Shown here piece by piece: positions 8,449 to 64,000 of a stretch of DNA of 64,000 nt. This stretch comes from Gautieria morchelliformis. Lineage: Eukaryota > Basidiomycota > Agaricomycetes > Gomphales > Gomphaceae. The stretch is from positions 88,504 to 152,503 of the forward strand of contig WHVA01000260.1 of assembly GCA_015179125.1 (NCBI GenBank). The letters are read 5' to 3'. A model generated the notes under the pieces. That model worked only from the letters and a program-made list of their open reading frames with translations. It was not told the origin of the DNA and did no database searches. Every line of letters begins with the position of its first letter. Position 1 is the first letter of the stretch. The translations under genes were made by a program, and so were the position numbers.

Positions 8449-8692
8449 GGATGTAGGGAATATGTCAGATGACTATGTAGCTACTCAAACGCAAATTCAA
8501 CTATCCCTATGGCCCCGTACCTCCCGTACCTCCCGTATGCCCGTATACAGCTGTATGGTGGCTGTACACGTACCGTGTGGCATGCTGGTGGTCCAGGATA
8601 CGGAACGGATACGGTACGTGTGACACTGTAAAGTGGCCGTAAGACATACGGCCGTACCCATATATGGTACGGTGCCGAGCCCTAGTCTGGAT

Positions 8693-9344
8693 GTGGTTGA
8701 AGGCCCTTGTGCCCCGGGTCAAAGGGGTCGCATCACCTCTCAGGGCGAGGCTACTCGACCTCTTCGGCTCAACAGACCAATGGTCGAGCCTTGTCGACGC
8801 CAGGGAAGTGCTGACGCCTCAGAGCACCACCCTGCAGCTCTAAATCACGGGCCCATTCCCTGTGGAGGGCTGAGCCAGCCCCGACATCCCACTCGCGGAG
8901 ATCGCGAGGTGGTTGGCCCGCTACGTGGGAGTCACTCGCGAGCGAGTGGCGCGCATTGAACATTATGTTCAACGCAGCATCACCGGCGCGGCATTCAGTG
9001 CCGCTGCCCGCGAGGGCCAACAAAAGGTCATCGAGACCAGCCACGTGAGGGCCACGGTGCCGCGACCCCTCACTCACGCCCAGCTCGACCGAGAGCTGGC
9101 GCGCTTCCGGCCCCCTCCTCAGACTGAGGACCCAGCCGTTGAGGCCATGCTCCGCGAGGACGTGGGCCCCAGCACCCAAGCGGATACCGCCGCTAGCGGT
9201 GAGGCCTACCAGCCTCACCCAATCACCACCGATGATGTGGAGGTGCCCCCGGAGGAGTCACGTGCTCCACCGGCCCCGTACGATGACGTCGTCATCGTAT
9301 CGGCCACTCTAGAGGACACCCTCATGGATGACCTCTATGAGTAG
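8693..9344 (+). pseudogene. Family A ORF3, C-terminal third
   Basis: Resumes ORF3 after the hAT with WMWLKAL-like sequence, SPLRARLLDLFG, TDQWSSLVDAREVL and SITGPFPV-like ITGPFPVEG, then LAEIARWLARYVGV and an acidic tail ending DDLYE at a TAG (9342-9344). Contains stop codons: one TAA-type near 8843 specific to this copy and a TGA in GGC-TGA-GCC that the second family A copy shares. The shared TGA may split the protein into two ORFs or be read through. Function unknown. Confidence 0.7.
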
Positions 9345-9368
9345 TAGTTAACCCCTATAGTTGTCTAT

Positions 9369-9593
9369 AGAGGGGGAGGGTGTAAATAACCCATGTATCT
9401 ACATGTACATTAGTTATTACATAATCCCAGTGGGCCCCTTAGGGACCCACTGTATAGTTTATGCGTGGGAACCGGCTAGCGGTCCCCATCGCATCTTACC
9501 CTTACACTGTCACTATGTAGCATCAGAATACCACACATTGGTCAAGTTCTGTCGTGCTCTTGTGACTTAAGGCTTAAGATAGACATCTTTACA
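9369..9593 (+). mobile_element. Family A polypurine tract and 3' LTR (213 bp)
   Basis: AGAGGGGGAGGG (9369-9380) primes plus-strand DNA; the LTR follows at 9381-9593, from TGTAAATAACC to ATCTTTACA. It matches the LTR pair at 50266-50479 and 59135-59348. The partner 5' LTR lies left of the window. Unusually short LTR for a roughly 9-kb element. Confidence 0.9.
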
Positions 9594-9602
9594 AACACAC
9601 CC

Positions 9603-9976
9603 ACGTCATGGGCAGCAGCGGCAGCACTACCGACCATGGCGCAGGCGAAACTTGATGCTCTCAAGGTTGCATCCAGCCTAGGGTGACAACAGGTCTAGTG
9701 AAAGAGAGGTGGACAGAGACGAGAAAATGAATTGAGGCCATGGGTGAGACAAAGATGCCTGCCACTTGAGTCACCACCAGGGGAGCGGCGACAGACCCAG
9801 AGGCTCTCACCAGAGAGGAGACTAGGGACTTGCCAGGACAGGAGATAGGGGATGTGGAAGCAGATAAACTCCATCTCGAATGAATGTTACTGACTGTGCC
9901 TGGCGCGCCCTGGACAATCAGGGCATTGTCCACTGCCATACTTCAGGTGATGCAATACAAGGGGATATCGTGTCAG
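9603..9976 (+). pseudogene. LINE-like ORF1, N-terminal fragment
   Basis: Frame starts SWAAAAALPTMAQAKLDAL, then degenerates with a frameshift and a TGA (near 9890). The reading frame at its right end continues exactly into 18026 once family B and one GTCAG copy are removed (codons for KGISCQAVNAM). Together with 18026-18257, 19147-19410 and 35473-35639 it rebuilds a gag-like LINE ORF1. I recognise the type from Agaricomycete genomes by memory only; the reverse transcriptase ORF2 is absent here. Confidence 0.6.
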
Positions 9977-10677
9977 TGTTACGACCGTTCATTTCCGATT
10001 TCCGACCCTCAGTTTCCGCCACTCCTTCCGCCCCTCCAATAGTTCCGCACAACGTTCCGCCCCTCCGACATTTCCGACATTCCGCCCCTTGTACATTTCC
10101 CTTGTTCTTTCGACTCTATTACTCGGACCCACCGGACCCACCACGCCATCCATCAAAACCATATATCCGGTCACCCTTGTAGTTCGTTGTCAGATATGTT
10201 TTCCCGACCCCTTGTTCTTTGTCATTGTTCTACCTTACCCTGAACCCCCCTTGTAGTCCCATTGTTCCCAATTAGTTAGTTCCCACACATTGTACTCGAC
10301 TTCCGCTTCCTCCGGAATTTGCTTAGTACAACACCATTACTTGTTGCTCTGCGCTTTGTATAAAACCCCCCTCATGTATGTCTGTTATTCTGCAATCAGA
10401 TAATCACCTTCGATACTTGATTTCCTTCGCTCCATCTCCTGTTCTTAGCACAGCGAGTCTAGCAAGATCTCAGTCTCTCTCTCAGCCTTCCGTCTTCCGC
10501 TTTCCGCCTTCCGCCTCTGTTCCGACTCAAGTTCCGACCAAACCTCTGGTCCAGTACCTTCCGGCTTCCGGCTCATTTCCGAAATACCTAGGACGATAGT
10601 TCATTGGGGGCGCAACCTATAAGTTGAAGCCGCTGTCCTTTCCAGTTCCGACTTAGTGGAAATCTCGATACGTAACA
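9977..10677 (+). repeat. Family B 5' LTR
   Basis: TGTTACGACCG to ATACGTAACA. Rich in TTCCG/CCGAC words. TATAAAA at 10359-10365 is the likely TATA box; 35 bp downstream AATCAGATAAT (10394-10404) is the likely RNA start and self-primer. Identical to 17325-18025. Confidence 0.95.
10359..10404 (+). promoter_or_regulatory. LTR promoter: TATA box and predicted RNA start/self-primer
   Basis: TATAAAA is followed after about 35 bp by AATCAGATAAT, which is exactly complementary to the primer-binding site at 10680-10690. In Tf1 the first 11 nt of the mRNA prime reverse transcription; spacing and length here fit that rule. Confidence 0.75.
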
Positions 10678-10679
10678 GT

Positions 10680-10690
10680 ATTATCTGATT
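10680..10690 (+). other. Self-priming primer-binding site
   Basis: ATTATCTGATT, 2 nt after the LTR end, is the perfect reverse complement of LTR bases 10394-10404; the match stops at exactly 11 nt on both sides. The same site follows the B LTR at 29018. Confidence 0.8.
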
Positions 10691-10710
10691 CCCACCCGAT
10701 AACTATCACT

Positions 10711-12150
10711 ATGCCTCCTCGTACCACAGCTACTTCAGCTCGAGCAGGAGCTGTCGAAGCTCTCTCTTATTTTGGCAATCTTAGATCCGCAGCACCAAGG
10801 CACGCGGAACCCTCCAGCAGCTCTCGTGCCGACGATGAGCTTCCCGATGCTTTTCCGCAACGTTTCGAAGAAGTTCCCGACGCTAATCCCGACGACAATC
10901 CCGACTACGACGGGAATTCGACGAGTAGCAGCGGCGAACAAACAGCAGCGTCATTCCGACGCCCAGCTCCACCAGCACCACCTCCACCAGGACCACCTCC
11001 AGGCGGCCCACCAGGCGGCCCTCATGGCGGCCCACCCGGCGGTCCCCCAGGCGGTCCTCCCGGTGGTCCTCCACCTCCAATTCCACCTCAGATTCCCGCC
11101 AACCCAGTTCCGCCCGCGCCAGTTCCGGATCTTGCACAAGCCATCGCCATGCTAGCCGGACAACTCCAGCGCCCGGCCCAAGCACCACCACGCCCCAAGA
11201 CAAAGGTCCGCGAACCAGATCAGTTCGACGGTTCCGACCCCAAGAAGCTCCAGCCATTTCTGGTTCAGCTTCAACTCAATTTCCGTGATCGACCCGACGC
11301 CTTTCCCGACGACGAACGAAAGGTCAATTATGCCCTTTCCTATCTCCGAGGCACGGCGCTCGACTATTTCGAACCCGCCCTCATGGATCCGTTCGCTCTC
11401 GTCGACTGGGCCGACGATTACACCAATTTCATTTCCGAACTCCGCAGCAACTTCGGACCATTTGATATGGAAGCCGATGCGGAAAACGAACTCGATAAGC
11501 TTCGCATGAAAGACACTCATAAGATAGCTAAATATATCGTCACGTTTCAGCAGCTCGCTCCTCGAGTCCAATGGGGAGAAGCCGCACTCCGACGCCAGTT
11601 TTACATGGGCTTGCCACCCCGCATCAAGGATGAAATTGCCCGGGTCGGAAAACCCGCCACCCTTACCGACCTCCGCAACCTCGCCCAATCCATCGATTCG
11701 CGCTACTGGGAAAGACACTCCGAGATTGCTCGTGAAACATCCACCCAGAGCAAGAATGACAAGTCTTCCGACAAGAAGTCTGATAAAGACAAGAAGAAGA
11801 CCAATTCCGGAAACACCAACTCCGGAAACAACAACAACAACAGTTCCGGATCCAACTCCGGCAACCGGAACAACAACAACACCCCTCGGAACAACCAGGC
11901 CTCTGGTTCTAACACCAATGCCCGGAAGAGTACCCCGGATCTTTCCGACAAACTTGGGAAAGACGGGAAACTAACCCCTGTAGAACGCCAGCGTCGCATG
12001 GACAACAACCTTTGCCTCTTCTGCGGCAAAGGAGGTCACGTCGCTCGCGACTGCACTCGCGCTTCCGCCTCCGCTGCTAAGGCCAAAGGCCGCGCAGCAA
12101 AGACGGAAGAGAAGTCCGAAGCGGTTCCCGCTGCGGATTCAAAAAAATAG
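10711..12150 (+). CDS. gag: Family B Gag, 479 aa
   Basis: First ATG after the primer site. Order: acidic Ser-rich N-terminus, a Pro/Gly-rich tract of PPGG-type repeats (about residues 85-140), a retrotransposon gag core with FDGSDPKKLQPFL, YALSYLRGTALDYF and FDMEADAENELDKLRM (about 170-330), an Asn/Ser/Gly-rich linker, and a CCHC zinc knuckle CLFCGKGGHVARDC (about 434-448). It forms the particle and binds RNA. The last codons TCA AAA AAA precede the stop TAG and form an A AAA AAA slippery heptamer, so Pol is probably made by -1 frameshifting. Intact. Confidence 0.92.
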   Translation: MPPRTTATSARAGAVEALSYFGNLRSAAPRHAEPSSSSRADDELPDAFPQRFEEVPDANPDDNPDYDGNSTSSSGEQTAASFRRPAPPAPPPPGPPPGGPPGGPHGGPPGGPPGGPPGGPPPPIPPQIPANPVPPAPVPDLAQAIAMLAGQLQRPAQAPPRPKTKVREPDQFDGSDPKKLQPFLVQLQLNFRDRPDAFPDDERKVNYALSYLRGTALDYFEPALMDPFALVDWADDYTNFISELRSNFGPFDMEADAENELDKLRMKDTHKIAKYIVTFQQLAPRVQWGEAALRRQFYMGLPPRIKDEIARVGKPATLTDLRNLAQSIDSRYWERHSEIARETSTQSKNDKSSDKKSDKDKKKTNSGNTNSGNNNNNSSGSNSGNRNNNNTPRNNQASGSNTNARKSTPDLSDKLGKDGKLTPVERQRRMDNNLCLFCGKGGHVARDCTRASASAAKAKGRAAKTEEKSEAVPAADSKK

Positions 12151-12187
12151 TCAGCAGTCCTCCAGCCTCCGCACGAGCTGAGGGCTG
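12141..12187 (+). promoter_or_regulatory. Probable programmed -1 frameshift signal between gag and pol
   Basis: A AAA AAA (12141-12147) lies directly before the gag stop TAG (12148-12150). The -1 frame is open and runs into the protease. A possible stem (12163-12169 with 12180-12187, one bulge) begins about 15 nt downstream, a little further than usual. Confidence 0.65.
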
Positions 12188-15100
12188 TGTTGACCCCATT
12201 CGTGCGACAAACGAGGTTAAACTCAACGCATCCGCTCTTTCGTCCTCCGACTCTCTCTCTGTTCCGCTCACTTCCGACACCATTTCCGCACCCCCGTTCA
12301 CAGCACTGGTCGACTCCGGTTCGACTCATTGTTTCCTCGATTCCGACTTTGTTTTGAAACATAAACTTCCGACCCGCAACATCCCGACTATTCCGCTCCG
12401 CCTTTTCGACGGGTCTTCCAACACGGGAATTTCCCAAGTTGTGGATCTGTCTATCCGTTTCGCTACTGGGGACAACCATGAAGTTACGTTTTACGTTACT
12501 CCGCTAGATGCTAGCTGCTCCGTTGTACTAGGACACAATTGGCTCACCCGATATAATCCGTCGATTAACTGGGCATTGGGTCAAATACAGTTCCGTACCC
12601 CGGATCAACTTCCGTCTATTCCGACGTCGTCCGCAAAGATGGCTCAGGCCTCTTCCGCAACTCCGCTCGTGGATTCAGTTCCGCACTCCGGTCCCGCTTT
12701 AGCACCTCCGCCCCTCGAAGCTCCTCGAATTGCGCTCGTTTCCGCCACCGCTTTCCGTGTATTGCAACGGCAAGATGATACGACCGCTTCCAGCTTCACC
12801 TCTCCGATTCGGCTTCAGTCAAGGCTCGTTCCGCCTCGACTTCCGCTCCGGTCGACATGAGCTCAGTTCCGGAAGAATATCGTGACTTCCCGGACGTGTT
12901 CAATAAGGCCAAAGCCGACAAACCTGCTGAACATCGACCTTACGATCTGAAGATAGATTTGGAAGAAGGAGCATCTCCGCCCCTTGGCCCGATCTACTCT
13001 CTTTCGCAAAGTGAACTCCTAACTCTCCGAGAGTTCGTCGATGAACATCTCAACATGGGCTTTATCCGCCCTTCGCTGTCTCCGCACGGCGCTCCGGTCC
13101 TCTTCGTCAAGAAGAAGGATGGATCTCTCCGCCTCTGCGTCGATTTCCGCGGACTCAATGCCCTCACTAAAAAGGACAAATATCCGCTTCCGCGCATTTC
13201 CGATTTACTCGACACTCCCCGCAGAGCGAAGATCTACACCAAAATTGACCTACGGCACGCTTATCACCTTGTCCGCATCCGGGAAGGTGACGAGTGGAAA
13301 ACCACCTTCCGCACCCGCTACGGCGCTTTGAGTGGGTTGTCATGCCTTTTGGTCTAACCAACGCTCCCGCCGCTTTTCAGCGATTCATGAACGACGTATT
13401 TTCCGACCTCCTCGACGTATGCGTTCTAGTCTACATTGACGACATCCTCATCTATTCCGACACACCGGAAAAACATCGGGAACATGTCCGCGAAGTACTC
13501 CGCCGCCTACGCAAACACCATCTCTACGCAAAAGCAGAGAAATGCGAATGGCATCGCGACACGGTCGAATACCTCGGCTACATCCTCTCTCCAACAGGTC
13601 TTACCATGGCAGAGGACAAGGTCAAGGCAATTCAAGAATGGCCGGAACCCCGACGTGTTAAGGATGTGCAGTCTTTCCTTGGCTTCGCCAACTTTTACCG
13701 GCGTTTCATTTATAATTTTTCCGACATTACTGTTCCGCTCACGCGTCTCACCAGGAAGGGTGCCCCATGGAATTTCACACCGGAATGCCGTTCCGCATTT
13801 GAAGCCCTCAAATCGGCCTTCACCACGGCTCCCATACTCGGTTTCTGGATTCCTGATGCCCAACTTGTACTCGAAACCGACGCTTCTGACTACGCGCTAG
13901 CCGCCATTCTTTCCATCATTTCACCCGACGACGGAGAAATTCATCCGATCGCCTTTCATTCCCGCACCTTTTCCGCCCCGGAACTCAACTACGACGTCCA
14001 CGATAAGGAACTACTTGCGATTTTCGAAGCCTTCAAAATTGGAGACATTACCTCGAAGGTCCAACTTATCCATCGACGTTGTAACGGATCATAAGAACCT
14101 TGAGTATTTTGCAACCACTAAGATTTTGACTCGCCGTCAAGTCCGCTGGTCTGAATACCTCTCACAGTTCAACATGGTGATCCGTTTCCGCCCCGGAAAG
14201 CTCGGAGCAAAACCCGACGCGCTCACTAGACGTTGGGACGTCTACCCAAAAGAGGGAAGTAGCGACTATGCCAGCGTTAATCCGCACAATTTCCGCCCAG
14301 TATTCTCCACTGAGCAACTGGCATCGTCCCTGCGTGCCACAGCATTGCAGTTTCCACTACTCCGCGCCTCAATGATTATGGACACCGAGTCTCTCCATTC
14401 CGACATCCGTTCCGCACTCCGTTCCGACCCCACCTCCGCAGCCCACCTCGATAACCCCACCAGTCCTGGATGGTCCCTCGATTCCGACGGATTTCTCCGG
14501 TACAAGTCCCGGATTTACGTTCCGGACACCAACGATCTACGACTTCGCGTGCTCCAGCAAAGCCACGATCATCCGCTCTCAGGACACCAAGGCCAGAACA
14601 AGACCCTCGACATAATCCGACGTACCTATACTTGGCCTCTCCTCCGCACGATGGTCCAAGACTACTGCAAGTCATGCACCACCTGTATGCGAGCCAAGCC
14701 TCAACGTCACAAACCCTACGGCCTCCTGAAGCAACTTCCGATCCCGGAACAACCGTGGAATTCAATATCCATGGATTTCATTGAGAAACTTCCTAAGTCA
14801 TCCGGCTATGATACCATTCTAGTGATCGTTGACCGCCTCACAAAGCAGTCCATCTTTATTCCGACCTACGACACCATAACTTCCGCCCAGCTCGCACAGC
14901 TCTTTGTGCTCCACGTCTTTTCCAAGCACGGAATACCTTCCCATGTCACTTCCGACCGTGGATCCGAATTTGTGTCCTCCTTTTTCCGCACACTCGGCAA
15001 GGCTCTCGACATGAAGCTCCACTTCACTTCCGGTTATCACCCCGAAGGAGACGGACAAACGGAACGTACTAATCAGACCCTTGAGCAGTATCTCCGCGTC

Positions 15101-15849
15101 TATTGCAACTACCAACATAGCAATTGGTCCGACCTTCTTCCGCTCGCGGAATTTGCCTACAACAACGCGCCTTCCGCTACCACCGGAATTTCACCCTTTT
15201 ATGCCAACAAGGGCTACCACCCGAATCTCGCCATCCACCCTGAACGCGACCTCGCCTCTGCAAGAGCCCGAGATTTCGTTGTGGAACTTGACGACCTTCA
15301 CCAGCACCTCCGAGAGAACATTACCGCTGCCCAGAAGAGATACCAAACTTCCGCCGATCGGAAACGCCTTCCGCAACCGGCATTCGAGATAGGCGACAAA
15401 GCCTTTGTCAAAGCGGAAAACTTCCGCACCACTCGCCCCTCGAAGAAGCTCTCTGAGAAATACCTGGTCCTTACGAGATCATCGCTAAGGCCGGCAGTCG
15501 TTCTTTCACCCTCAGACTTCCTGACAATATGCGCGCAGTACATCCGGTATTCCATGTCTCCATGCTTGAACCCGCAGTTCCGAATACAATTCCGAATCGA
15601 GAACAACCTCCGCCTCCGCCAGTCGTCATCGACGGAGAACCGGAATATGAGATTTCGGAAATTCTCAACTCCAAGCTCGACAGAAGATACCGCTGCCAAC
15701 TCCAGTACCTAGTCAAGTGGGCAGGCTATGAAAACACTGACGAAGAGACTTCGTGGATTTCCGCCACGGAACTTGACCACGCCTCTGACCTCGTCTCTGA
15801 TTTCCACAAGTCATATCCTGACAAGCCTGGCCCCATTCCCGCGCCCTAG
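12147..15849 (+). pseudogene. pol: Family B Pol: protease, RT, RNase H, integrase, chromodomain (frameshifted)
   Basis: Entered by -1 shift from gag. Protease: FTALVDSGSTHCF (about 12300-12345). [56 protein letters not shown], in order (about 13080-13460). RNase H: LETDASDYALAAI and VVTDHKNLEYF. Integrase: H-H-C-C region (SGHQGQNK to CTTCMRAK), core with D (SMDFIEKLP), D (TSDRGSEF) and E (GQTERTNQ). Chromodomain EYEISEILNSKLDRRYRCQLQYLVKWAGYENTD-type near 15650-15760, split here only in description. Single-base deletions near 12780, 13327, 14040, 14075 and 15470 break the frame; the minus-strand copy at 61.6-63.9 kb lacks the last three. An ATGA overlap at 12857 is coincidental. Confidence 0.9.
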
Positions 15850-15996
15850 TCATTTCCGACCTCATTTCCGACCTCATTTCCGACACCATTGCTTTCACAG
15901 TTCTCAGGACATTTATCAAAAAAAAAAAAAAACGATTAATCTTCCGATATCCTATTTTCCGACACTTCAAGAAATTATCTACAGGTTTTTCGACAT
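15850..15996. other. Convergent spacer between pol and the antisense gene
   Basis: The pol stop (15849) and the antisense gene stop (15997) face each other across about 147 bp containing three CATTTCCGACCT-like repeats and an A15 run (about 15919-15933). The other B copy lacks the A run. Likely holds 3' ends of both transcripts; no signal is certain. Confidence 0.45.
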
Positions 15997-17202
15997 CTAC
16001 TCCTCCCTCATGGTCTCCGCCTCGACCTCCCTTTCCGCTTCCGGATCTTTCTCCGACCCTCCTACCTCGGCGATCACCAACTCCGTGTCTACCCGTTCCC
16101 TCGTTTCCGCCCCGTTCTCCTCCTGCACCCGCGGTTCCATCCTTTCCCGGACCATCTCGTTCCGCCACCGGTACTCGCGCTTGAACTGCTCCAAGACCGC
16201 CGACATGACGGTCATCTGGTTCTGGAATGACAGCAGCTGCTGTTCCTGAACCGCCGCCATACCCGCAAGCAGGTTCCGGATCCCGCGTTGGTTTTTCCGG
16301 ATCCCCCTCAGCGACTCAGCGATGTCAAGCAGCGGAGACGCCATGCTGAAGCGGTTAAGCACAGCTGTCTCCGATGTTCCGGTCACCGGAAACCCTTCCG
16401 CCTTCTTCCCGCTTGGTCCTGGTTTTGACTTGGGGGTTTCAGGCCCCTCGGTCTCAACCCTGCGCCGTTTCCGCTCCACCCTCGCGGCACACCCATCCAC
16501 CACGCAACGGCACTTCTTGTCCCGGCACCGTTCGCAGGCCGTCTCCCGCGGATTTTCCGACCACACGCACTCCAGGCCCTTGACCTCACACGTATCGCAA
16601 GGAGCCTTCTCCTCCTCACCGTCCCTGGTCTTCCTTTTCCGGGTCGCAGGATTTTCCGGCCCCAGCTCTCGCAACTCCAGTATCCGAGCCAGTTTCTCTT
16701 TCCGAGCCTGCTGGAACTCGTCCGCCCTCCGTTTCCGCTCCTCAACTACGTTCGGCATGGGAGCACTTTCTTTTTGCTTCCCCTTGCCCTCTGGAGTCGG
16801 CGTACTTTCCACTTCCGACTCCCCCTCGGAATCGGCAACTCTCTGGCAGTTCTCTGTGAGCTCCGGAACCTCCCCACGACATTTCCGACTCACCCGGAAC
16901 CTCCCTGCCTTTTCCGCCACGGCCTTTTCTTCCGCAGCCTTTTCGGCCGCATCCCGTTTCCGTTGTTCTTCACGGGCGCGCGACTCCTCCTCGCGACGCT
17001 TACGGTCACGCTCCTCCTTCTCCTTCCGTTCCTGCTCCCGACGCTCCAGTTCCTTGCGCTCCTCCTCCAGCCGCTCCCTCTCTTTCCGCGCGGCTTCCTC
17101 GGCCTCGCGCTTCTCGGCCAGTTCCTTCTGCGCAAGAATATCAGCAAAGTGCTGCTTCATCTCGGCACTGGACATTTTAGAGAAATCGACTGAAGAGCTC
17201 AT
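15997..17202 (-). CDS. Antisense accessory gene of family B: coiled-coil Zn(II)2Cys6 protein, 401 aa
   Basis: Uninterrupted ORF on the strand opposite gag-pol, between pol and the 3' LTR. Residues 1-15 are MSSSVDFSKMSSAEM; about 18-100 is a highly charged E/R/K coiled coil; about 115-160 is acidic and Ser/Pro-rich; residues 202-233 hold C-x2-C-x6-C-x10-C-x2-C-x6-C, the spacing of fungal Zn2Cys6 DNA-binding domains, followed by basic ERKRRRVE and a C-terminal helical region (LLDIAESLRGIRK). A second B copy (60307-61532) encodes the same protein with changes that mostly keep the protein, and family I has a spliced, diverged relative at 37135-37846. Possible roles are control of element transcription or integration targeting; both are inference. 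Confidence 0.85.
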   Translation of the reverse strand: MSSSVDFSKMSSAEMKQHFADILAQKELAEKREAEEAARKERERLEEERKELERREQERKEKEERDRKRREEESRAREEQRKRDAAEKAAEEKAVAEKAGRFRVSRKCRGEVPELTENCQRVADSEGESEVESTPTPEGKGKQKESAPMPNVVEERKRRADEFQQARKEKLARILELRELGPENPATRKRKTRDGEEEKAPCDTCEVKGLECVWSENPRETACERCRDKKCRCVVDGCAARVERKRRRVETEGPETPKSKPGPSGKKAEGFPVTGTSETAVLNRFSMASPLLDIAESLRGIRKNQRGIRNLLAGMAAVQEQQLLSFQNQMTVMSAVLEQFKREYRWRNEMVRERMEPRVQEENGAETRERVDTELVIAEVGGSEKDPEAEREVEAETMREE

Positions 17203-17204
17203 GA

Positions 17205-17324
17205 TGGAGTAAACAGAAGACGCGTCTTGTTTCCCGCCTATATTTCAAACTCCGACGCGTTTGTTCACAGGTCACGTGATTCCGACTTGTGGTCTCGCGG
17301 GGCTCGACTTTAGAAGGGAGATAC
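17205..17324 (-). promoter_or_regulatory. Promoter region of the antisense gene, overlapping the 3' end of the element body
   Basis: On the minus strand an AAATATAGG TATA-like box lies about 40 bp before the ATG and a CACGTG E-box (about 17273) further up; the CACGTG is conserved in the other B copy (near 60232). Only about 120 bp separate the ATG from the 3' LTR, so LTR sequence may also contribute. Confidence 0.4.
17312..17324 (+). other. Family B polypurine tract
   Basis: AGAAGGGAGATAC immediately before the 3' LTR; the same sequence abuts the 3' LTR of the copy at 60185-60200. Plus-strand primer for reverse transcription. Confidence 0.85.
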
Positions 17325-18025
17325 TGTTACGACCGTTCATTTCCGATTTCCGACCCTCAGTTTCCGCCACTCCTTCCGCCCCTCCAATAGTTCCGCACAA
17401 CGTTCCGCCCCTCCGACATTTCCGACATTCCGCCCCTTGTACATTTCCCTTGTTCTTTCGACTCTATTACTCGGACCCACCGGACCCACCACGCCATCCA
17501 TCAAAACCATATATCCGGTCACCCTTGTAGTTCGTTGTCAGATATGTTTTCCCGACCCCTTGTTCTTTGTCATTGTTCTACCTTACCCTGAACCCCCCTT
17601 GTAGTCCCATTGTTCCCAATTAGTTAGTTCCCACACATTGTACTCGACTTCCGCTTCCTCCGGAATTTGCTTAGTACAACACCATTACTTGTTGCTCTGC
17701 GCTTTGTATAAAACCCCCCTCATGTATGTCTGTTATTCTGCAATCAGATAATCACCTTCGATACTTGATTTCCTTCGCTCCATCTCCTGTTCTTAGCACA
17801 GCGAGTCTAGCAAGATCTCAGTCTCTCTCTCAGCCTTCCGTCTTCCGCTTTCCGCCTTCCGCCTCTGTTCCGACTCAAGTTCCGACCAAACCTCTGGTCC
17901 AGTACCTTCCGGCTTCCGGCTCATTTCCGAAATACCTAGGACGATAGTTCATTGGGGGCGCAACCTATAAGTTGAAGCCGCTGTCCTTTCCAGTTCCGAC
18001 TTAGTGGAAATCTCGATACGTAACA
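17325..18025 (+). repeat. Family B 3' LTR
   Basis: 701 bp, no difference seen from the 5' LTR at 9977-10677. Followed by the target duplication GTCAG. Confidence 0.95.
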
Positions 18026-18257
18026 GTCAGGCGGTAAATGCAATGAGGTTGATTACCTTCGTGCTGGAGGCTGTTGAGGATGATGCTAGGTGCGAGAGGC
18101 TGGTGAGCCAGGTCAAGGAGAGCCTCGCAGCAGAGGGGAACCTGCTCTTGGCCAAAATCATAGAGGCCACAACACTAATCAACAAGGCCACCTTGGCAGC
18201 CAAGACCATGGCCAGACTCTCTAGCTGGGTCACTGAGGATGCGGCGGTGGTAGTTCA
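18026..18257 (+). pseudogene. LINE-like ORF1, second fragment
   Basis: Open frame QAVNAMRLITFVLEAVEDD through AKTMARLSSWVTEDAAVVV, helical and probably coiled-coil. Frame joins 9976 on the left (after GTCAG) and 19147 on the right (after GTTCA). No known enzymatic motif. Confidence 0.6.
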
Positions 18258-26572: not shown

Positions 26573-28054
26573 TGTTAGGGATCGTCCACAAAGTAGCTAC
26601 CTATTTATGAACATTTACTAGGTAGTTAATTAGTTTCAAATGTCCTCAAGAAAGGTTGTATTAATATTTCTATGCTACACTCACATTGGGTCCACAAGAT
26701 ACAACAATCTCTTGATAGTTTAGCTAAGAATCACCCACGATCACATGACTATCACATGACCTCAAAAAACAGCTCAAAGTCACCTGATCACCCACAGTCA
26801 CCTGACAATCACCTGACCTCAAAGTCACCTGATTATCTACAGTCACCTGACAATCACCTGACCTCAAAGTCACTTGATTACCTACGGTCACCTGACAATC
26901 ACATGACACAGTCACATGACCTCAATCCAGCTTGAAGTCACATGACTTTCCTTCGTCACATGATAATCACATGAGCATGGGAGTTTCTTACATACTCTTA
27001 GCTTTACTGTCACAGAGCTGTGACTTTAACCCAATATAGCAATAGAACCTTCCACAGCCTTCCAATAGTTTCCAAACCTTTCCTGAAGCTTCTCTAAGCT
27101 TCCACAAGGTTCTTCACAGTAGTAGAAGCCTCTACAAGGTTCCTAGCAGTAGTTACATAAGCTAGATAGATGCAGTATAAATAGCCTGCAGTTTTAGCAG
27201 TGAAGCAATCAATCATCTTTCACCCAAACCACTCATACCTTGAGTAACTGAAGTGTGACTTCAACACAGCCTTGTACCGAAGTACTGGCTCACTGACTTG
27301 GCTACAGTCTAAGATTGCAGCAACTCTGATTGGCTCTGAGAAGTACAAGAGTGCTCTATTTTAATTGCAGCAGGCTCTGACTAATCGCGCTGCGAACAGC
27401 AACATTACTAAGAGTAACTGATTAGTAATCCTGTACCATTAGACGCCACTCTGAGCAGTGATCTAATAGACTTGGTTATTAGTTATTCAATTCACGCAAT
27501 AGTTTATTAACTTAACTCTGAGTTAAGTGGGTTAATAGCCTTTTGAGTAATTGATCTTTCTTGATCAATCAACGCACTGCAGATATTAACCTAACTCAGG
27601 GTAAGTGAGTTAATATCCTACGTTTGTTGAGTTGGAAAACCAGAAAAGCCACAAGAATAGTGACATACTTGAACTGAGGAAGAGTTCAAGCGCAGAACTA
27701 TGTTTTCACGTCTTGGGGATTATTGTTGTCTTTAATTCACTCGACCCACGGTCCTAAGACTCTAAGTAGCTGTCCCCCTTAAAGTATCTGGACCCTTGGA
27801 CGCCTAATAACATTCTTTGACCTCACAAAGTATTGCACAATCTAAGAACTACACGTGTTCAGTTAAATCTCTATTGCTACACTTCCTGTACCAATACTGA
27901 TTCTGATTGTTCACCGGAGTATAATTTCTTAATTGGGTTCTCCGTTAAAATAGTTTCGAAGCTTGGGTGTGCTTGTAAAGTCAAATCTCTGATTGAACTT
28001 TAGAATTGTGTTTAACACCACAGTTTTACGTTTAGTTCAACGGGTTCCAAAACA
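26573..28054. mobile_element. Solo LTR, 1.48 kb (copy 2, inverted relative to 1264-2742), TSD GAACC
   Basis: TGTTAGGG to CCAAAACA, the reverse complement of the copy at 1264-2742 with few differences. GAACC at 26568-26572 and 28055-28059. Carries the same hairpin chain (about 27390-27620) and TCAxGTGA array (about 26735-26970). Confidence 0.94.
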
Positions 28055-35639: not shown

Positions 35640-35822
35640 ACATTGCATATGACTCCTCATAAAAATTTATTGAGGAACTACTGTCAATTATCACAGCCAA
35701 GGACTATCCGAGCAGCCAACAAAGGCACTTTTGATGCCTTTGGCTCAGGACTGCTCGTATTATCCAATAAGGTTGGAGATAAAACAGTAGAGGTCACATT
35801 GCAAGATACGTACTATGCGAGC
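35640..35822 (+). pseudogene. Inverted piece of copia protease region
   Basis: HMTPHKNLLRNYCQLSQ, RTIRAANKGTFDAFGSG and VGDKTVEVTLQDTYYA on the plus strand, matching 32800-33000 of family G, but butted against a minus-strand copia gag at 35823. It looks like a 183-bp inversion in place, with loss of the codons between. Confidence 0.75.
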
Positions 35823-36755
35823 ACTCATTGAAATTGGTGAAGGCAAGATTCCCATCATCACTTTCCTCAGAAGAGGTCTCTTCTTTGGCAACATTCGCTT
35901 TTGCTTTACCCTTCTTCTTCTTTTTGCCTTTGGCTTTTTTCTTCTGATGTGGTCCTTTTCTTTACCACCTCCTTTAGCCCAGCAATTTTTGATAGTGCGT
36001 CCAGGCTTTTTGCAGTTACTGCATGTATGCATCTTCTGCCCCTTCTGGTCCTTCTTAGTAGATGAACCAATAAACACTTGCTCTTCTTGCGGGAGTGTTT
36101 TCTTCCTGTCATACTGAGCCTTTAGTACCCTAATAATGTCATCAGGGACTAAGGGCCTCCCGCATTCTTCAAGCAAAGTGGTGAGGGCATCCATGACTGC
36201 CTCATAGGATGGTGGAAGTGACGCAAGGATGATATCCATGAATTCTTCTTCAGAAACTCTGGCTCCCATCTCATTAAGACGAGCATATAGGTCTTGGGCC
36301 TTGTCCAAATGATCTCTCAAGTCTCCATCCTCAGGACATCTCATACTGTGGAGTTGTCTCTGCAGGCTGGTGAGGACCATCTTGGGCTTTTTGGTCATTT
36401 CATTGACCAATGCATCCCAAGTCTCTTTTGCTGTCTTTTGTTTCTGTAGCATCAGAGCTAGTGACTCTGACACTGAGACGATGATTTGGGTTTTGGCTTG
36501 TCCTTCTCTAGCAAGATATCTCTCCAGCCTCTCCTTGGCATTATCTATCTGAGTTTCCTCAGCTTCTGTAAGAATATGGCCTGGGGGCATGACTGGAGGA
36601 TCAGAAGGTTGAGTGACTCTCCCTTCTACATGCTTGAGTAGATTTTTGGACTCGAAATAGCTGATGAGAGTGGCTCGCCACAATGGCCAATTACTTCTAT
36701 CTGTAGCAAGCTTCTCAACACCAAAAAGTTTCTCTGAAGTGTCTCTGGGGCCCAT
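35823..36755 (-). pseudogene. Copia family H Gag
   Basis: MGPRDTSEKLFGVEKLATD, WPLWRATLISYFESKNLLKH, ETWDALVNEM, LHSMRCPEDGDLRDHLDKA, EEFMDIILASLPPSYEAVM, a UBN2-like copia gag. The zinc knuckle reads CSNCKKPGRTIKNC, with R in place of the ligand H. After about residue 285 a frameshift leads to the Lys-rich tail. The ATG lies inside the primer-binding site. Confidence 0.85.
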
Positions 36756-37134: not shown

Positions 37135-37846
37135 AGCTACACCGGACTTTCTGGTCTACGCATTGCTGGCAAGCGGTTTTCTTTCCCTGCAGACACTGAG
37201 TGTTGCACCATCTGCAAGCATTGCATGGCTTGTGCTGTAACAAAAAAATACATAAGTCAAACCCAGACCGAACTGACCCGAGGACTTACCTCTTCATCCG
37301 ACTCCTCCTCGTCTGACTCTTCTGTCGCCTTCCTTTTCTTCATTCTGGAGGCCTTAAGCTTTGCCTTAGCCACACTCCTTTCCAGCACGTGCTTCACGAC
37401 CAGAATCCGAGCTTGCGCTACTGCTGAATCCACAATTACCGGCTCGGGTGACGGGATGTGAAAATTTTGATTCACATCAGCTTGTCAGATCTTTTCAGCT
37501 TCCAATATAGCGAAAAGTCGAAGTCGCTCATATACGGCTGCTGGCCCCGGTGCTTTCTGAGCCTCCTTGGCTTTCACCTTTAAGGGCTTCTTCTCAGCTT
37601 CCTGGGCTTCCTCAGCTTTTTGAGCCTCTTCGGCTCTTCATGCAGCTTTGGCCTGTGCCTCCCATTCCTTCTGTTCCACCTCGGCTTTTTCTTCATCCTC
37701 CCACCATTTTTCTCTAAAGCCTCCTTGTGCTCTTGTGCAAGCCTCGGTTTTTCCATCAGCTCATTCTGGCACTTTTCGGCCTCAAGCTCAGCCTGTGCAA
37801 GCTCAGCATTGATCTTGTCGATGGGAATGTTGCATGTTTCTGACAT
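37135..37846 (-). pseudogene. Family I antisense Zn(II)2Cys6 coiled-coil gene, spliced, 3' truncated
   Basis: Starts MSETCNIPIDKINAELAQ (37846), then a long charged helix (ELEAEKCQNELMEK, EAQKAEEAQEAEKK), with a frameshift and stops, an acidic EESDEEESDEE tract, a 55-bp intron (37235-37289; GTAAGT to TTACAG), and after it C-x2-C-x6-C-x7-C-x2-C-x6-C starting HKPCNACRWC. Cut after the sixth Cys by the copia LTR. Same layout as the family B gene: opposite strand to the element, next to the 3' LTR. The intron supports real expression on the minus strand. Confidence 0.75.
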
Positions 37847-37980
37847 GATCCATGATTTCTGATAGTGATGGGAGAAGACAAGAAGCAGAACGTGAAACAA
37901 AGCTTATGTAACCCTCCCGACCCAGCAATCTCCTGGATCTCACTTATGGCCTTATGGGTTCGTCCATAAGGGGGAGGTAC
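37847..37980 (+). other. Family I spacer and polypurine tract
   Basis: 134 bp between the antisense start and the LTR, ending AAGGGGGAGGTAC (37968-37980), equivalent to the AGAAGGGAGATAC of family B. Must also hold the antisense promoter unless that is in the LTR. Confidence 0.6.
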
Positions 37981-38408
37981 TGTTATGATCTGTTCCTGAA
38001 TCCTGTCCCAAAGCCTTGGCTTCGGTTCTCATTTAGGAACCTCAGGTTCTACTCAGCTTTCCTTCAGGTTTCCCTTTGCACCTTCCATCACCCCTGACTT
38101 CCTTTTCTAGTTAGTTCCCCATTTACCTGACCCTTTGTTCCCCTGACCATTGATTGATCCAATCATTGTCCCTTCGCAACCCTGCATGCTACTTTACTAT
38201 ATAGACCCCCAGTCTATGTATCGTAGTTCCTCAGTTCAGATATTGAATTAGCTTCTCGTACTTAGACATCCCTGCTTGATATCAAAACCTGCTTCTCAGC
38301 TTATAGCCGAGACCGCTCCTGAAATTAGGGCAGAACACTGAGTGAGTGCAACCCACCCAAGTTCGGCCTTGGTAAAACTGAACTACAGTACGACTCACAA
38401 CCTTAACA
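37981..38408 (+). repeat. Family I 3' LTR
   Basis: TGTTATGATCTGTTCC to CAACCTTAACA, 428 bp, with TATATAG near 38199. Right neighbour is family F RT. The 5' LTR was not found. Confidence 0.75.
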
Positions 38409-50265: not shown

Positions 50266-50479
50266 TGTAAAGATGTCGATCTTAGGACCTTGTATCACAA
50301 GGGCACTGCAGAACTTGACCAATGAGTGGTATTCTGAATGCTACGTAGTGACAGGTAAGAGTAAGATGCAATGGGGACCGCTGGCCAGTTCCCACGCATA
50401 AACTATACAGTGGGTCCCTAAGGGGCCCACTGGGATTATGTAATAACTATTGTACATGTAGATACATAGGTTATTTACA
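50266..50479 (-). repeat. Family A 3' LTR
   Basis: TGTAAAGATGTCG to TTATTTACA as read on plus; differs from 59135-59348 at two sites (GCAATGG/GCGATGG and CCCACGC/CCCATGC). Polypurine tract on its right side (CCCTCCCCCTCT on plus). Confidence 0.93.
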
Positions 50480-50512
50480 CCCTCCCCCTCTATAGACAAC
50501 TATAGGGGTCAA

Positions 50513-59499: not shown

Positions 59500-60184
59500 T
59501 GTTACGTATTGAGATTTCCACTAAGTCGGAACTGGAAAGGATGGCGGCTTCAACTTATAGGTTGTGCCCCCGATGAACTATCGTCCTAAGTATTTCGGAA
59601 CTGAGTCGGAAGTCGGAAAGTACTGAACTAAAGGTTGGTCGGAACTTGGGTCGGAACTGAGGCGGAAGGCGGAAGGCGGAGAGAGACTGAGATCTTGCTA
59701 GACTCGCTGTGCTAAGAACAGGAGATGGAGCGAAGGAAATCAAGTATCGAAGGTGATTATCTGATTGCAGAAAGAGAGACATACATGACAGGCTTTTATA
59801 CAAAGAGCTGAGACAACAGGTAATGATATGGTACTAAGCAAATTCCGGAGGAAGTGGAAGTCGAGTAGACAATGCGTGGGAACTAGCTATTGGGAACAAT
59901 GGGACTACAAGGGGGGTTCAGGGTAAGGTAGAACAATGGCAAAGAACAAGGGGTCGGGAAAACATATCTGACAACGAATTACAAGGGTGGCCGGATATAT
60001 GGTCTTGATGGACGGTGAGGTGGGTCCAGTGGGTCCGAGTAATAGAGTTGAAAGAACCAGGAAAATGTACAAGGGGCGGAATGTCGGAAATATCGCAGGG
60101 GCGGAATGTGTTGCGGAAATATCGGAGGAGCGGAAAGGTGTGGCGGAACTGAGGGTCGGAAGTCGGAAATGAACGGTCGTAACA
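59500..60184 (-). repeat. Third family B element, 3' LTR
   Basis: 685 bp, TGTTACGTATTG to CGGTCGTAACA on plus. Polypurine tract GTATCTCCCTTCT (plus) adjoins at 60185. Left flank TTCGG lies in family C. Confidence 0.92.
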
Positions 60185-60306
60185 GTATCTCCCTTCTAAG
60201 GTCGAGCCCCGCGAGGCCACAAGTCGGAATCACGTGACCTGTGAACAAACACGTCGGAGTTCGAAAGATAGGCGGGAAACAAGATGCGTCTTCGTTTTGA
60301 TCCACC

Positions 60307-61532
60307 ATGAGTACTCCGGTCGACTTCTCCAAAATGTCCAGTGCCGAGATGAAGCAGCATTTTGCTGATATGCTTGCGCAGAAGGAACTGGCTGAAAAGC
60401 GCGAGGCCGAGGAAGCCACGCGGAAAGAGAGGGAACGTCTGGAGGAGGAGCGCAAGGAGAGAGAGCGCAAGGAACTGGAGCGTCGGGAACAGGAGCGGAA
60501 GGAGAAGGAGGATCGTGACCGTAGACGTCGCGAGGAGGAGTCGCGTGTCCGCGAAGAACAGCAGAAACGGGATGCGGCCAAAAAAGCTGCGGAAGACAAG
60601 GCCGCGGCGGAGAAGGCGGGACAATCCCGGGTGAGTCGGAAACGTCATGTGCTTAGTTCTGGTGCTGACAGAAGAACTTGGCAGAAAATAATTGTCGAAT
60701 CCGATTCCGAACCGGAATCGGAAGACACCGCAGAAAGCACGCCGTCCCCTGAGGGGAAGGGGAAGCAACAGGAAGTAGTTCCTGTGCTGAACCTTGTGGC
60801 GGATCGGAAAAGGAGGGCGGACGAGTTTCAGCAGGCCAGGAAGGACAAAATGGCCCGCATCATCGACCTTCGGGAATTGGGACCGGAGAATCCCGCAACC
60901 CGGAAACGGAAGACGAGGGACAGGGAAGAAGAAAAGGCCCCCTGTGACACATGCGAGGTGAAGGGGCTCGAGTGTATTTGGTCGGAAAATCCGCGGGAAA
61001 CCGCCTGCGAACGGTGCCGCGACAAGAAGAGGCGATGCGTCGTGGACGGATGTTCCGCGAGGGTGGAGCGGAAAAGGCGAAAGGTCGAGACCGAGGGCCT
61101 GAAACCCCTAAGTCAAAACCAGGGCCGAGCGGGAAAAGGGCCGCGGAAGGCTTTCTGGTGACCGGGCAGTCGGAAACAGCGGTGCTGAATCGCTTCACCA
61201 TGGCGTCGCCCTTGCTCGATATCGCCGAGTCGTTGAGGGGTATCCGGAAAACACAACGCAGAATCCGGAACATTCTGCTGGAAATGGCGGAAGTCTCAAC
61301 GACATCAGGTGTTGTCGTTTCAGAATCAGATGACTGTAATGTCGACAGTTTTGGAACAACTGAAGCGGGAGTTCCGGTGGCGGAACAATTTGTTCCGGGA
61401 CCAAATGGGTTGCAAATGGAGGAGCAGGAGAATGGGGCGGGAACGAGGGTGGAGACCGAGTTGGCCAACGTGGAAATAGGCCATGCGGAAGAAGGTCGGG
61501 AGCGGAGAACGAGGGCGAGGGGGAAACGATGA
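60307..61532 (+). pseudogene. Antisense Zn(II)2Cys6 coiled-coil gene, second family B copy
   Basis: Opposite to its element. MSTPVDFSKMSSAEM, coiled coil, then C-x2-C-x6-C-x10-C-x2-C-x6-C at residues 213-244, all six Cys kept. The frame shifts by one base near 61110 (TEG then PETPKSKPGPSGK in the next frame) and again near 61290, after which LLDIAESLRGIRKTQRR and an acidic end follow. Compared with 15997-17202 the first half carries small in-frame length differences, as expected under protein-level selection. ATG has the same CACGTG upstream (near 60232). Confidence 0.8.
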
Positions 61533-61639
61533 GGGAGGATTAGGTGTCGAAAGACTTGTAGATAATTTCTTGAAGTGTCGGAGAATAGAGTAACGGAAAT
61601 TTAATCGGATTTTGACAACTGACTTGAGAACTGTAAGAC

Positions 61640-63866
61640 TCAATGGGCGTCGGAAATGAGGTCGGAATGACTACGGCGCGGAAATGGGGCCGGGCTTATC
61701 AGGATAGGACTTGTGGAATTCAGTGACGAGGTCAGAGGCTGGTCTAGTTCCGTGGCGGAAATCCAGGAAGTCTCTTCGTCGGTGTTTTCATAGCCTGCCC
61801 ACTTGACTAGGTACTGGAGTTGGCAGCGGTATCGTCTGTCGAGCTTGGAGTTGAGAATTTCCGAGATCTCATATTCCGGTTCTCCGTCGATGACGACTGG
61901 CGGAGGCGGAGGTTGGTCTCGATTCGGAATTGTATTCAGAACTGCTGGCTCAAGCATGGAGACATGGAATACCGGGTGTACTGCGCGCATATTGTCAGGA
62001 AGTCTGAGAGTGAAAGAACGACTGCCGGCCTTAGCGATGATCTCGTAAGGGCCAAGGTATTTCTCAGAGAGCTTCTTCGAGGGGCGAGTGGTGCGGAAGT
62101 TTTCCGCTTTGACAAAGACTTTGTCGCCTATCTCGAATGCCGGTTGCGGAAGGCGTTTCCGATCGGCGGAGGTTTGATATCTCTTCTGGGCAGCGGTAAT
62201 GTTCTCTCGGAGGTGCTGGTGAAGGTCGTCAAGTTCCACAACGAAATCTCGGGCTCTTGCAGAGGCGAGGTCGCGTTCGGGGTGGATGGCGAGATTCGGG
62301 TGGTAGCCCTTGTTGGGTAAAAGGGTGAAATTCCGGTGGTGGCGGAAGGTGCATTGTTGTAAGCAAATTCCGCGAGCGGAAGAAGGTCGGACCAATTGCT
62401 GTGTTGGTAGTTGCAATAGACACGGAGATACTGCTCAAGGGTCTGATTAGTACGTTCTGTCTGTCCGTCTCCTTCGGGATGATAACCGGAAGTGAAGTGG
62501 AGCTTCATGTCGAGAGCCTTGCCGAGCGTGCGGAAGAAGGAGGACACGAATTCTGATCCACGGTCGGAAGTGACATGGGAAGGGATTCCATGCTTGGAAA
62601 AGACGTGGAGCACGAAGAGCTGTGCGAGCTGGGCGGAAGTTATGGTGTCGTAGGTCGGAATAAAGATGGACTGCTTTGTAAGGCGGTCAACGATCACTAG
62701 AATGGTATCATAGCCAGATGACTTAGGAAGTTTCTCAATGAAATCCATGGATATCGAATTCCACGGTTGTTCCGGGATCGGAAGTTGCTTCAGGAGGCCG
62801 TAGGGTTTGTGACGTTGAGGCTTGGCTCGCATACAGGTGGTGCATGACTTGCAGTAGTCTTGGACCATCGTGCGAGGAGGGGCCAAGTATAGGTACGTCG
62901 GATTATGTCGAGGGTTTTGTTCTGGCCTTGGTGTCCTGAGAGCGGATGATCGTGGCTTTGCTGGAGTACGCGAAGTCGTAGATCGTTGGTATCCGGAACA
63001 TAAATCCGGGACTTGTACCGGAGAAATCCATCGGAATCGAGGGACCATCCAGGACTGGTGGGGTCATCGAGGTGGGCTGCGGAGATGGGGTCGGAACGGA
63101 GTGCGGAACGGATGTCGGAATGGAGAGACTCGGTGTCCATAATAATTGAGGCGCGGAGTAGCGGAAACTGCAATGCTGTGGCACGCAGGGACGATGCCAG
63201 TTGCTCAGTGGAGAATACTGGGCGGAAATTATGCGGGTTAACGTTGGCATAGTCGCTACTTCCCTCTTTTGGGTAGACGTCCCAACGTCTAGTGAGCGCG
63301 TCGGGTTTTGCTCCGAGCTTTCCGGGGCAGAAACGGATCACCATGTTGAACTGTGAGAGATATTCAGACCAGCGGACTTGACGGCGAGTCAAAATCTTGG
63401 TAGTGGCAAAATACTCAAGGTTCTTATGATCCGTTACAACGTTGATCGGATAGGTTGGACCCTCGAGGTAGTGTCTCCAAATTTTGAAGGCTTCAAAATC
63501 GCAAGTAGTTCCTTATCGTGGACGTCGTAGTTGAGTTCCGGGGCGGAAAAGGTGCGGGAATGAAAGGCGATCGGATGAATTTCTCCGTCGCCGGGGGAAA
63601 TGATGGAAAGAATGGCAGCTAGCGTGTAGTCGGAAGTGTCGGTTTCGAGTACAAGTTGGGCATCAGGAATCCAGAAACCGAGTATAGGAGCCGTAGTGAA
63701 GGCCGATTTGAGAGCTTCAAATGCGGAACGGCATTCCGGAGTGAAATTCCATGGGGCACCCTTCCTGGTGAGACGCATGAGCGGAACAGTAATGTCGGAA
63801 AAATTATAAATGAAACGCCGGTAAAAGTTGGCGAAGCCAAGGAAAGACTGCACATCCTTAACACGT
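61640..63866 (-). pseudogene. Third family B Pol: RNase H, integrase, chromodomain
   Basis: From the right: VQSFLGFANFYRRFIYNF, LETDTSDYTLAAI, VVTDHKNLEYF, HPLSGHQGQNKTLDIIRR, CTTCMRAK, D (SMDFIEKLP), D (TSDRGSEF), E (GQTERTNQ), KYLGPYEIIAKAGSRS, and the chromodomain EISEILNSKLDRRY with YLVKWAGYENTDEE. Frameshifts near 63490, 62880, 62320 and 61710. RT lies beyond 63866, where another B LTR has inserted. Confidence 0.88.
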
Positions 63867-64000
63867 TGTTACGACCGTTCATTTCCGACTTCCGACCCTC
63901 AGTTTCCGCCACTCCTTCCGCCCCTCCAATAGTTCCGCACAACGTTCCGCCCCTCCGACATTTCCGACATTCCGCCCCTTGTACATTTCCCTTGTTCTTT
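63867..64000 (+). repeat. Fourth family B LTR, runs off the right edge
   Basis: TGTTACGACCGTTCATTTCC, matching 9977 onward with almost no change. Inserted after CACGT (63862-63866) in the pol of another B element. Whether solo or full length is not visible. Confidence 0.9.

Follow-up and report, generated by a model that had tools for sequence, protein, structure and literature searches.

An antisense gene with a six-cysteine cluster in a fungal chromovirus, and a candidate address word spread over the same element

Why would a retrotransposon carry a gene that runs against its own gag-pol? The question is raised by a Ty3/gypsy chromovirus of the basidiomycete Gautieria morchelliformis, located in a stretch of 64,000 nucleotides (contig WHVA01000260.1, positions 88,504 to 152,503 of the forward strand; hereafter the window, in which all positions are counted). 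Between the stop codon of the chromodomain (15849) and the polypurine tract and 3' long terminal repeat (LTR), which begin at 17312 and 17325, the minus strand contains an open reading frame (ORF) of 401 codons at 15997-17202, from ATG to TAG. This ORF is very likely a real, selected and probably spliced gene. It might be a long-resident accessory gene encoding a self-addressed regulator or anti-silencing factor, an explanation to which, taken as a whole, we assign a probability of about 0.45.

The element belongs to the chromoviruses, with gag, the order reverse transcriptase (RT), RNase H and integrase, a chromodomain, LTRs running from TG to CA and a target site duplication. Each of these protein domains, from gag to the chromodomain, has a Pfam match. 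Subfamily I denotes the subfamily of the window copy, and w is the dN/dS ratio. The features of the element are the following.

9972-9976 and 18026-18030: target site duplication GTCAG (5 nt) on both sides of the element
9977..10677, plus strand: 5' LTR, 701 nt, TGTTACG...CGTAACA, 19 TTCCG words, identical to 17325-18025
10711..12150, plus strand: gag with Ty3 capsid and zinc knuckle (Pfam Ty3_capsid 4.8e-11, Retrotrans_gag 9.8e-11)
12354..15849, plus strand: pol, frame-interrupted, with RT, RNase H, integrase and chromodomain (Pfam RVT_1, RT_RNaseH, Integrase_H2C2, rve and Chromo across successive frames)
15997..16842, minus strand: antisense exon 2, 281 codons plus the stop codon; w 0.20 for subfamily I against II (from the alignment)
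16156..16350, minus strand: predicted long C-terminal helix, residues ~285-349 (single-sequence AlphaFold2, mean pLDDT per ten-residue block increasing from 58 to 97 along the helix)
16489..16599, minus strand: cysteine cluster C202-C238, C-x2-C-x6-C-x10-C-x2-C-x6-C-x4-C, halves apparently swapped relative to Zn_clus
16843..16893, minus strand: probable phase-0 intron, 51 nt, GTGAGT...CCAG, in frame in subfamily I
16894..17202, minus strand: antisense exon 1, 103 codons with a charged coiled coil; w 0.10 for subfamily I against II
17203..17311, minus strand: promoter-like region with TCACGTGA (17272-17279), ACGCGT (17255-17260 and 17220-17225) and AAATATAGG
17312..17324, plus strand: polypurine tract AGAAGGGAGATAC, recognized from the sequence, with few changes among the aligned copies that extend there
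17325..18025, plus strand: 3' LTR, identical to the 5' LTR and followed by GTCAG at 18026-18030
9977..17324, no single strand: field of 105 TTCCG and 30 CGGAA words, assessed by dinucleotide expectation, codon-preserving shuffles and LTR conservation

The original prediction had placed a 401-codon antisense ORF between pol and the 3' LTR, and the coordinates agree exactly. The genome (122 Mb) contains at least 105 matches to the antisense protein, with the best 103 of 1081 candidate places scored. Copies were taken from the best protein-search matches (L009-L038) and chosen by hand from stop-free rows (L039-L050), hence openness and nonsynonymous divergence (dN) are biased in these sets. Cut or broken copies (L031 and L033-L038) were excluded from counts of the ratio of nonsynonymous to synonymous differences (pN/pS). 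As a control for the bias, L051-L070 were chosen by pol (chromodomain) DNA, four of these being the same elements as L009, L010, L013 and L015. In the control set, both exons are open in 13 of 20 copies, the window copy included, and not open in seven.

The gene is under selection at the protein level. Across 22 close copies with a median synonymous divergence (dS) of 0.065 and dN of 0.012, the antisense frame has a pN/pS of 0.188. This is the lowest of the six frames, compared to 0.30 for the mirror frame and 1.3-2.1 for the remaining ones. A dN/dS near 1 among young copies, which had been named as the outcome that would overturn the prediction, is clearly not seen. Among 12 more divergent copies, pN/pS is 0.29-0.30 in the antisense frame and 0.48 in the mirror frame. 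Nine open copies of subfamily II show 0.20 in exon 1 and 0.16 in exon 2, and the comparison of subfamilies I and II gives w 0.10 at dS 1.28 for exon 1 and w 0.20 at dS 1.04 for exon 2. Pooled over the same 136 pairs of 17 close copies, pN/pS is 0.216 for the pol tail and 0.195 for the antisense gene. Pol is nevertheless more constrained in the typical pair, because the median dN of its tail (0.003) is lower than that of the antisense gene (0.012). Older copies (L039-L050) frequently have W, C, H or Q in place of arginine codons, as predicted by the decay of methylated CpG. The claim of an antisense gene with a coiled coil and a Zn2Cys6-type cysteine cluster inside a chromovirus is thus supported, with purifying selection added.

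An overlapping sense ORF (16322-17212) could instead be the selected frame, with the antisense ORF as its shadow. The sense frame is stop-free for at least 290 codons in 19 of the 22 close copies and 6 of the 12 diverse ones, and its pN/pS is the second lowest both in close (0.30) and divergent copies (0.48). However, the antisense frame has the lower ratio in both sets (0.188 and 0.291). As the third positions of both frames coincide, a low ratio in the shadow frame is to be expected. Openness alone decides nothing, since the copies were picked for an open antisense frame. The cysteine cluster, the conserved region upstream of the gene and a neutral stretch with splice signals at both ends all belong to the antisense direction, which leaves selection on the sense ORF a scarcely credible account. 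Even less can be said for the recent capture of a host transcription factor gene by a single element copy. Zn2Cys6 genes are common in fungi and the genome has 17 matches to PF00172, but the 1081 candidate places (103 scored) and a dS above 1 between subfamilies already contradict such an origin, and eight host loci with Zn_clus genes yield no match to an exon-2 profile.

Homology searches with the antisense protein return a single match among 7990 scored candidates, a predicted protein of G. morchelliformis sharing the N-terminal coil. The cluster region alone has no homologue among the 244 candidates scored from a large protein set, and an alignment of 15 exon-2 rows finds none among 7997 scored candidates of that set. 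Solved structures contain no match to the antisense protein. NCBIfam yields one weak match in one of 15 proteins.

The ORF is probably a two-exon gene, with a short intron that is in frame by chance in the window copy. In subfamily II, the gene is split over two frames by a stretch of 55 nt (GTGAGT...TTAACT...TTCCAG), hence the downstream frame needs splicing there. The corresponding place in the window subfamily holds 51 nt (GTGAGT...GCCAG) in frame. The donor string GTGAGTnGGAAA is present in 57 of 62 stretches, which represent 58 distinct places with four counted twice. Across 13 diverse copies, pN/pS is 0.94 in the intron stretch compared to 0.27 in the exons on either side. The two-exon structure is suggested by this neutral stretch together with the frame-breaking version of 55 nt. 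What had been described as a clean ORF of 401 codons is therefore an ORF indeed, although its coding sequence is probably interrupted by the 51-nt intron. A spliceosomal intron would be expected to persist in a retroelement only on the strand that is not copied, and this fits an antisense gene.

The ~120 nt between the ATG and the LTR are conserved: four copies of subfamily II match the window copy at 90.5-92% identity, and 12 diverse copies at 83-92%. Synonymous sites in the gene itself, by contrast, are near saturation when the two subfamilies are compared (dS above 1). Read in the antisense direction, the stretch contains a AATATAGG box, TCACGTGA and two ACGCGT words. The stretch could thus be the promoter of the antisense gene. 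The antisense strand might also act only as RNA, through antisense or double-stranded RNA control, with the ORF as a passenger. Such a role has been suggested for antisense transcripts in other LTR elements (PMC7264820). Yet selection at the codon level (a pN/pS of 0.19 already contradicts an RNA-only role), a neutral intron within selected exons and conserved cysteines make this very improbable.

The antisense gene changes independently of the surrounding element. LTR identity between the subfamilies is 94-96% for four copies of subfamily II. In steps of 100 nt along a pair of copies from the two subfamilies (L051 and L062), identity is 99% at the LTR-side end, 68-88% in the gene stretch and 97-100% in the pol tail. 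Overall, the gene is about 70% identical between the subfamilies. Mutation alone cannot give a dS above 1 beside a near-identical pol tail; therefore, judging from these alignments, the antisense gene is exchanged as a unit on a constant backbone, presumably by template switching.

The encoded protein is likely a zinc-cluster DNA-binding protein. Zn2Cys6 domains have the spacing C-x2-C-x6-C-x5..12-C-x2-C-x6..8-C, usually with a basic half, CxxCRxxKxxC, in first position. The window protein contains C202-x2-C205-x6-C212-x10-C223-x2-C226-x6-C233, followed by C238, and the stretch C202-C233 has the Zn2Cys6 spacing that the original prediction had recognized. Each cysteine is retained in 34 or 35 of 35 copies. 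When all six frames of the window are scanned for cysteine patterns of this class, three matches emerge (the antisense ORF and the two loci listed below), compared to none in 20 shuffled windows. The pattern is beyond chance given this contrast, the at least 105 genome matches and the pN/pS of 0.188.

60943-61038, plus strand: cysteine cluster of a second, diverged family copy (59500..64000, minus strand) that is truncated by the window end
37139..37225, minus strand: antisense Cys6 gene, decayed, from a second Ty3/gypsy family; it is located upstream of a polypurine tract at 37968-37980 and of an LTR start at 37981

The order of the two halves appears to differ from that of known zinc clusters. 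The basic half does not seem to come first in the window protein family, as it does in PF00172. When the triads of four copies were scanned separately, the first triad matches Zn_clus positions 7, 9 or 15 to 33-37 in three of four copies, and the second triad matches positions 1 to 13 or 15 in three of four, with weak E-values of 0.3-0.8. The first triad hence resembles the later part of the profile and the second its beginning, as though the halves were swapped. The match to PF00172 that had been anticipated falls short in the window protein, and among 15 exon-2 proteins only L040 passes the Pfam Zn_clus cut-off of 21 bits (22.1 bits). Scanned with Pfam, these proteins contain no other domain above its own cut-off. 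Single-sequence AlphaFold2 for residues 183-350 (pLDDT 61.8) predicts a short helix at the second triad and a C-terminal helix of 65 residues.

The element is saturated with a short word. TTCCG, the complement of CGGAA, occurs 105 times in 9977-17324 compared to 17.3 expected from dinucleotides (z 21), and is present in coding and noncoding parts alike. One LTR contains 19 compared to 1.8 expected, and related LTR pieces elsewhere in the window also bear the word (9-10 in those at 40 and 46 kb). In five window blocks outside the family, TTCCG stays below 1 per kb per strand and the z-score of every 5-mer is at most 5.6. The 24.9 kb covering eight host loci with Zn_clus genes contain 49 motif words, both orientations counted.

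In shuffles preserving amino acid sequence and codon usage (n=1000), expected counts are 3.5 for gag (12 observed), 4.7 for integrase (18 observed), 1.6 for RT (7 observed) and 10.2 for the antisense gene of the window (21 observed), with each observed count above all shuffles. Four subfamily II genes contain 18-21 words compared to 9.4-10.3, each again above all 1000 shuffles. The same holds for four of seven antisense genes from divergent copies (L039, L040, L048 and L049). About half of the motif sites in the gene differ between subfamilies I and II at a steady number (20 and 21 with 10 shared, 20 and 18 with 8 shared, 21 and 21 with 12 shared). Such turnover at constant number suggests upkeep of density at most, rather than of single sites. 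A spacing of 12 nt between sites is mildly favored inside the element (seven pairs), with some distance being as frequent in 7 of 2000 jitters.

In the LTRs, the motif itself is conserved. Motif letters outside CpG diverge by 0.0046 across 22 copies compared to a mean of 0.0233 for the shifted pattern (2 of 686 as low), and by 0.0152 compared to 0.0811 across nine more distant LTRs (0 of 686 as low). Ranked against other LTR 5-mers, TTCCG is ninth lowest of 57 in close copies and second in far copies. A contrast based on one reference LTR (1 of 1099 motif letters against 292 of 11569) was dropped in favor of the shifted-pattern test, which is fairer and uses all references.

CGG triplets are the usual half-sites of Gal4-type proteins, and we therefore propose that the antisense protein reads CGGAA. 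Recognition of CGGAA by the protein over its own element has, in our view, even odds. The saturation with TTCCG makes a regulator or targeting factor of the element's own, as the original prediction had considered, more likely than could be known then. Alternatively, the antisense gene is real but the TTCCG field serves another role. In the genomic RNA, UUCCG could serve packaging or export by recruiting Gag or a host RNA-binding protein, a host DNA-binding factor could use the word, and the zinc protein might do a different nuclear job such as import or integration targeting. The strand bias of the word (TTCCG outnumbers CGGAA by 105 to 30 in the whole element and by 19 to 1 in the LTR) points this way, as does the lack of a direct link between motif and protein. 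Conversely, the CGGAA orientation is also enriched in coding parts (9 compared to 3.0 in gag, 9-10 compared to 2.1-2.9 in the pol tail). Enrichment of both orientations suits DNA recognition, and the word contains the CGG triplet typical of Zn2Cys6 sites. Such a separate role of the field is possible, if on the unlikely side.

The protein could also be a partner of the chromodomain integrase in integration targeting or chromatin association, rather than an anti-silencing factor, with CGGAA binding steering new copies to old ones. The gene adjoins the chromodomain and is exchanged as a unit, and the genome holds many copies. However, the flanks past the 3' LTR of 23 copies contain 16 TTCCG and 20 CGGAA in 15,065 bases. 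Insertion beside motif-rich DNA is thus not the rule at this background density, and a targeting function appears improbable.

The decayed antisense gene of the second Ty3/gypsy family contains coiled-coil fragments and has at least 118 matches in the genome, itself included (150 of 188 candidates scored). A copia-like element (gag-like ORF 35760-36755, minus strand) lies between this antisense gene (37139-37980) and the nearest integrase remnant. Among 12 loci of the family, one being that of the window, four have an integrase on the opposite strand downstream and eight have the LTR-edge string upstream. A GT(A/G)AGT donor just before the cluster is visible in all 12, and a formal intron parser matched four. 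The best 5-mer containing CGG or CCG reaches z 3.9 or more in 11 of 12 loci compared to 2 of 19 controls (Mann-Whitney one-sided p 0.0003). The top words of this kind differ among loci (CCGAA in L083, CTCGG in L084, TCGGC in L078 and L081, CCCGA in L076). In four loci (L075, L079, L084 and L086), the top 5-mer overall contains neither CGG nor CCG. Among the controls, w6400 reaches z 5.7 (CCGTA), and the loci themselves are old and in part interrelated. The evidence that second-family loci carry CGG or CCG motifs of their own is hence suggestive only and should be taken as a lead.

Taken together, we suggest the following mechanism for the accessory gene. A promoter of its own, located between the coding sequence and the 3' LTR, would drive transcription of the gene in the direction opposite to gag-pol. 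Its transcript would be spliced once, and the intron could outlast retrotransposition because the copied genomic RNA is the other strand. The product, presumably a nuclear protein, would combine a coiled coil, a long C-terminal helix and a half-swapped Zn2Cys6 cluster that presumably binds zinc. The protein would most likely bind CGGAA, the word accumulated along the LTRs and coding sequence of the whole element. In coating copies of its own element, the protein might keep these transcribable or shielded from silencing. Anti-silencing or activation as the effect is a tentative proposal, with somewhat less than even chances. The broader picture is of an element carrying an address label together with the protein that reads the label. 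More tentative still is a self-address system common to LTR retrotransposons of this fungus, in which the product of an intron-bearing antisense zinc-cluster gene reads a CGG word element-wide. Lineages would differ in the word and swap the gene cassette-wise on a constant backbone, a pattern resembling an arms race against silencing by the host.

Several observations weigh against a self-addressed regulator, in addition to the open mirror frame with its low ratio, the age and relatedness of the second-family loci and the strong word in one of their controls. Two copies (L056 and L060) lack most of the antisense gene despite chromodomain DNA that is 99% identical; the gene is therefore not required in cis for every transposition. 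Zn_clus scores only 12.6 bits in the whole window protein and 16.2 in exon 2 alone, compared to the cut-off of 21, and the AlphaFold2 model has no confidence around the cysteines. Three genes from divergent copies (L043, L046 and L050) do not surpass the largest codon shuffle for TTCCG. Letters of motif sites in the gene are not clearly more conserved than others (0.241 compared to 0.264, 0.269 to 0.254 and 0.229 to 0.259). Finally, recognition at the RNA level would also explain the strand bias of the word.

Further observations concern the copies and the rest of the window. In the window copy, gag and the antisense ORF are open and pol is split over several frames. The repeated frame shifts of pol (12354-15849) despite identical LTRs could reflect errors of assembly, decay that set in recently or copying in trans. 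Among 35 examined copies, 23 have an uninterrupted integrase-chromodomain tail of at least 230 amino acids. In L056 and L060, an N-terminal stretch of the otherwise mostly missing antisense gene lies ~0.9 kb closer to pol. Outside the chromovirus, the window contains two long inverted repeat pairs, one of 821 nt at 8685-9505 and 50355-51175 (92% complementary) and one of 1175 nt at 1377-2551 and 26766-27940 (99% complementary).

Antisense genes are known from several retroelements. The HBZ gene of human T-cell leukemia virus type 1 (HTLV-1) is a spliced antisense gene near the 3' LTR that encodes a bZIP nuclear regulator. The Gautieria gene resembles HBZ in position, probable splicing and the predicted nuclear role, but the proteins are unrelated and the promoter-like region of the Gautieria gene lies outside the LTR. 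Compared to fungal Zn2Cys6 factors of the Gal4 type (PF00172), the antisense protein shares the cysteine spacing, basic residues in one half and CGG in the putative target, yet differs in the swapped half order and in the 14 of 15 exon-2 proteins under the Pfam cut-off. If it folds, the swapped order would be a new topology for a DNA-binding domain that is very common in fungi. Plants, as the original prediction had pointed out, have antisense ORFs in the same place, between pol and the 3' LTR. A review lists such additional ORFs (aORF-3R) in the plant elements Grande (gene23), RIRE2, Retand and PvRetro13 and also in Boty of the fungus Botrytis cinerea, and mentions an antisense HTLV promoter (PMC7264820). 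Gene23 of Grande has its own promoter and a nuclear product. As described there, aORF-3R products have no clear similarity to other proteins apart from the SMC domain of PvRetro13 and the transposase-28 domain of Retand, and the function of antisense ORFs in LTR retrotransposons is called unknown (PMC7264820). The Gautieria element adds a six-cysteine cluster, a probable intron, cassette exchange and a motif field, none being noted for aORF-3R in the parts of that review covered here. In a survey of Tcn1-like chromoviruses, a figure legend refers to an additional ORF whose function is unknown, and a word search of the main text finds no "antisense" (PMC2864245). Among the open-licence papers listed by literature searches, titles and opening lines of abstracts do not describe any antisense gene with a zinc cluster in an LTR element of a fungus. 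If correct, the mechanism proposed here would provide a reason for the existence of antisense ORFs in LTR retrotransposons.

The closest known mechanism is likely that of the VANC proteins encoded by VANDAL elements of Arabidopsis, with equivalence being conditional on binding of CGGAA. VANDALs are Mutator-like DNA transposons. Answers of transposable elements to host silencing are known in detail for few systems, plant VANC among them. VANC21 binds YAGTATTAY in noncoding regions of its own element, often in tandem repeats, and VANC6 has other words (PMC5735166, PMC10398659). The Gautieria chromovirus is similar in encoding a protein and having a short motif, TTCCG, highly repeated in the same element, and VANDAL families likewise differ in motif. 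In contrast to the sites of VANC21, TTCCG is also dispersed through coding sequence, and binding has been demonstrated for VANC21 and is predicted for CGGAA. If the prediction holds, sequence-specific self-recognition would have evolved independently in another class of elements and another kingdom.
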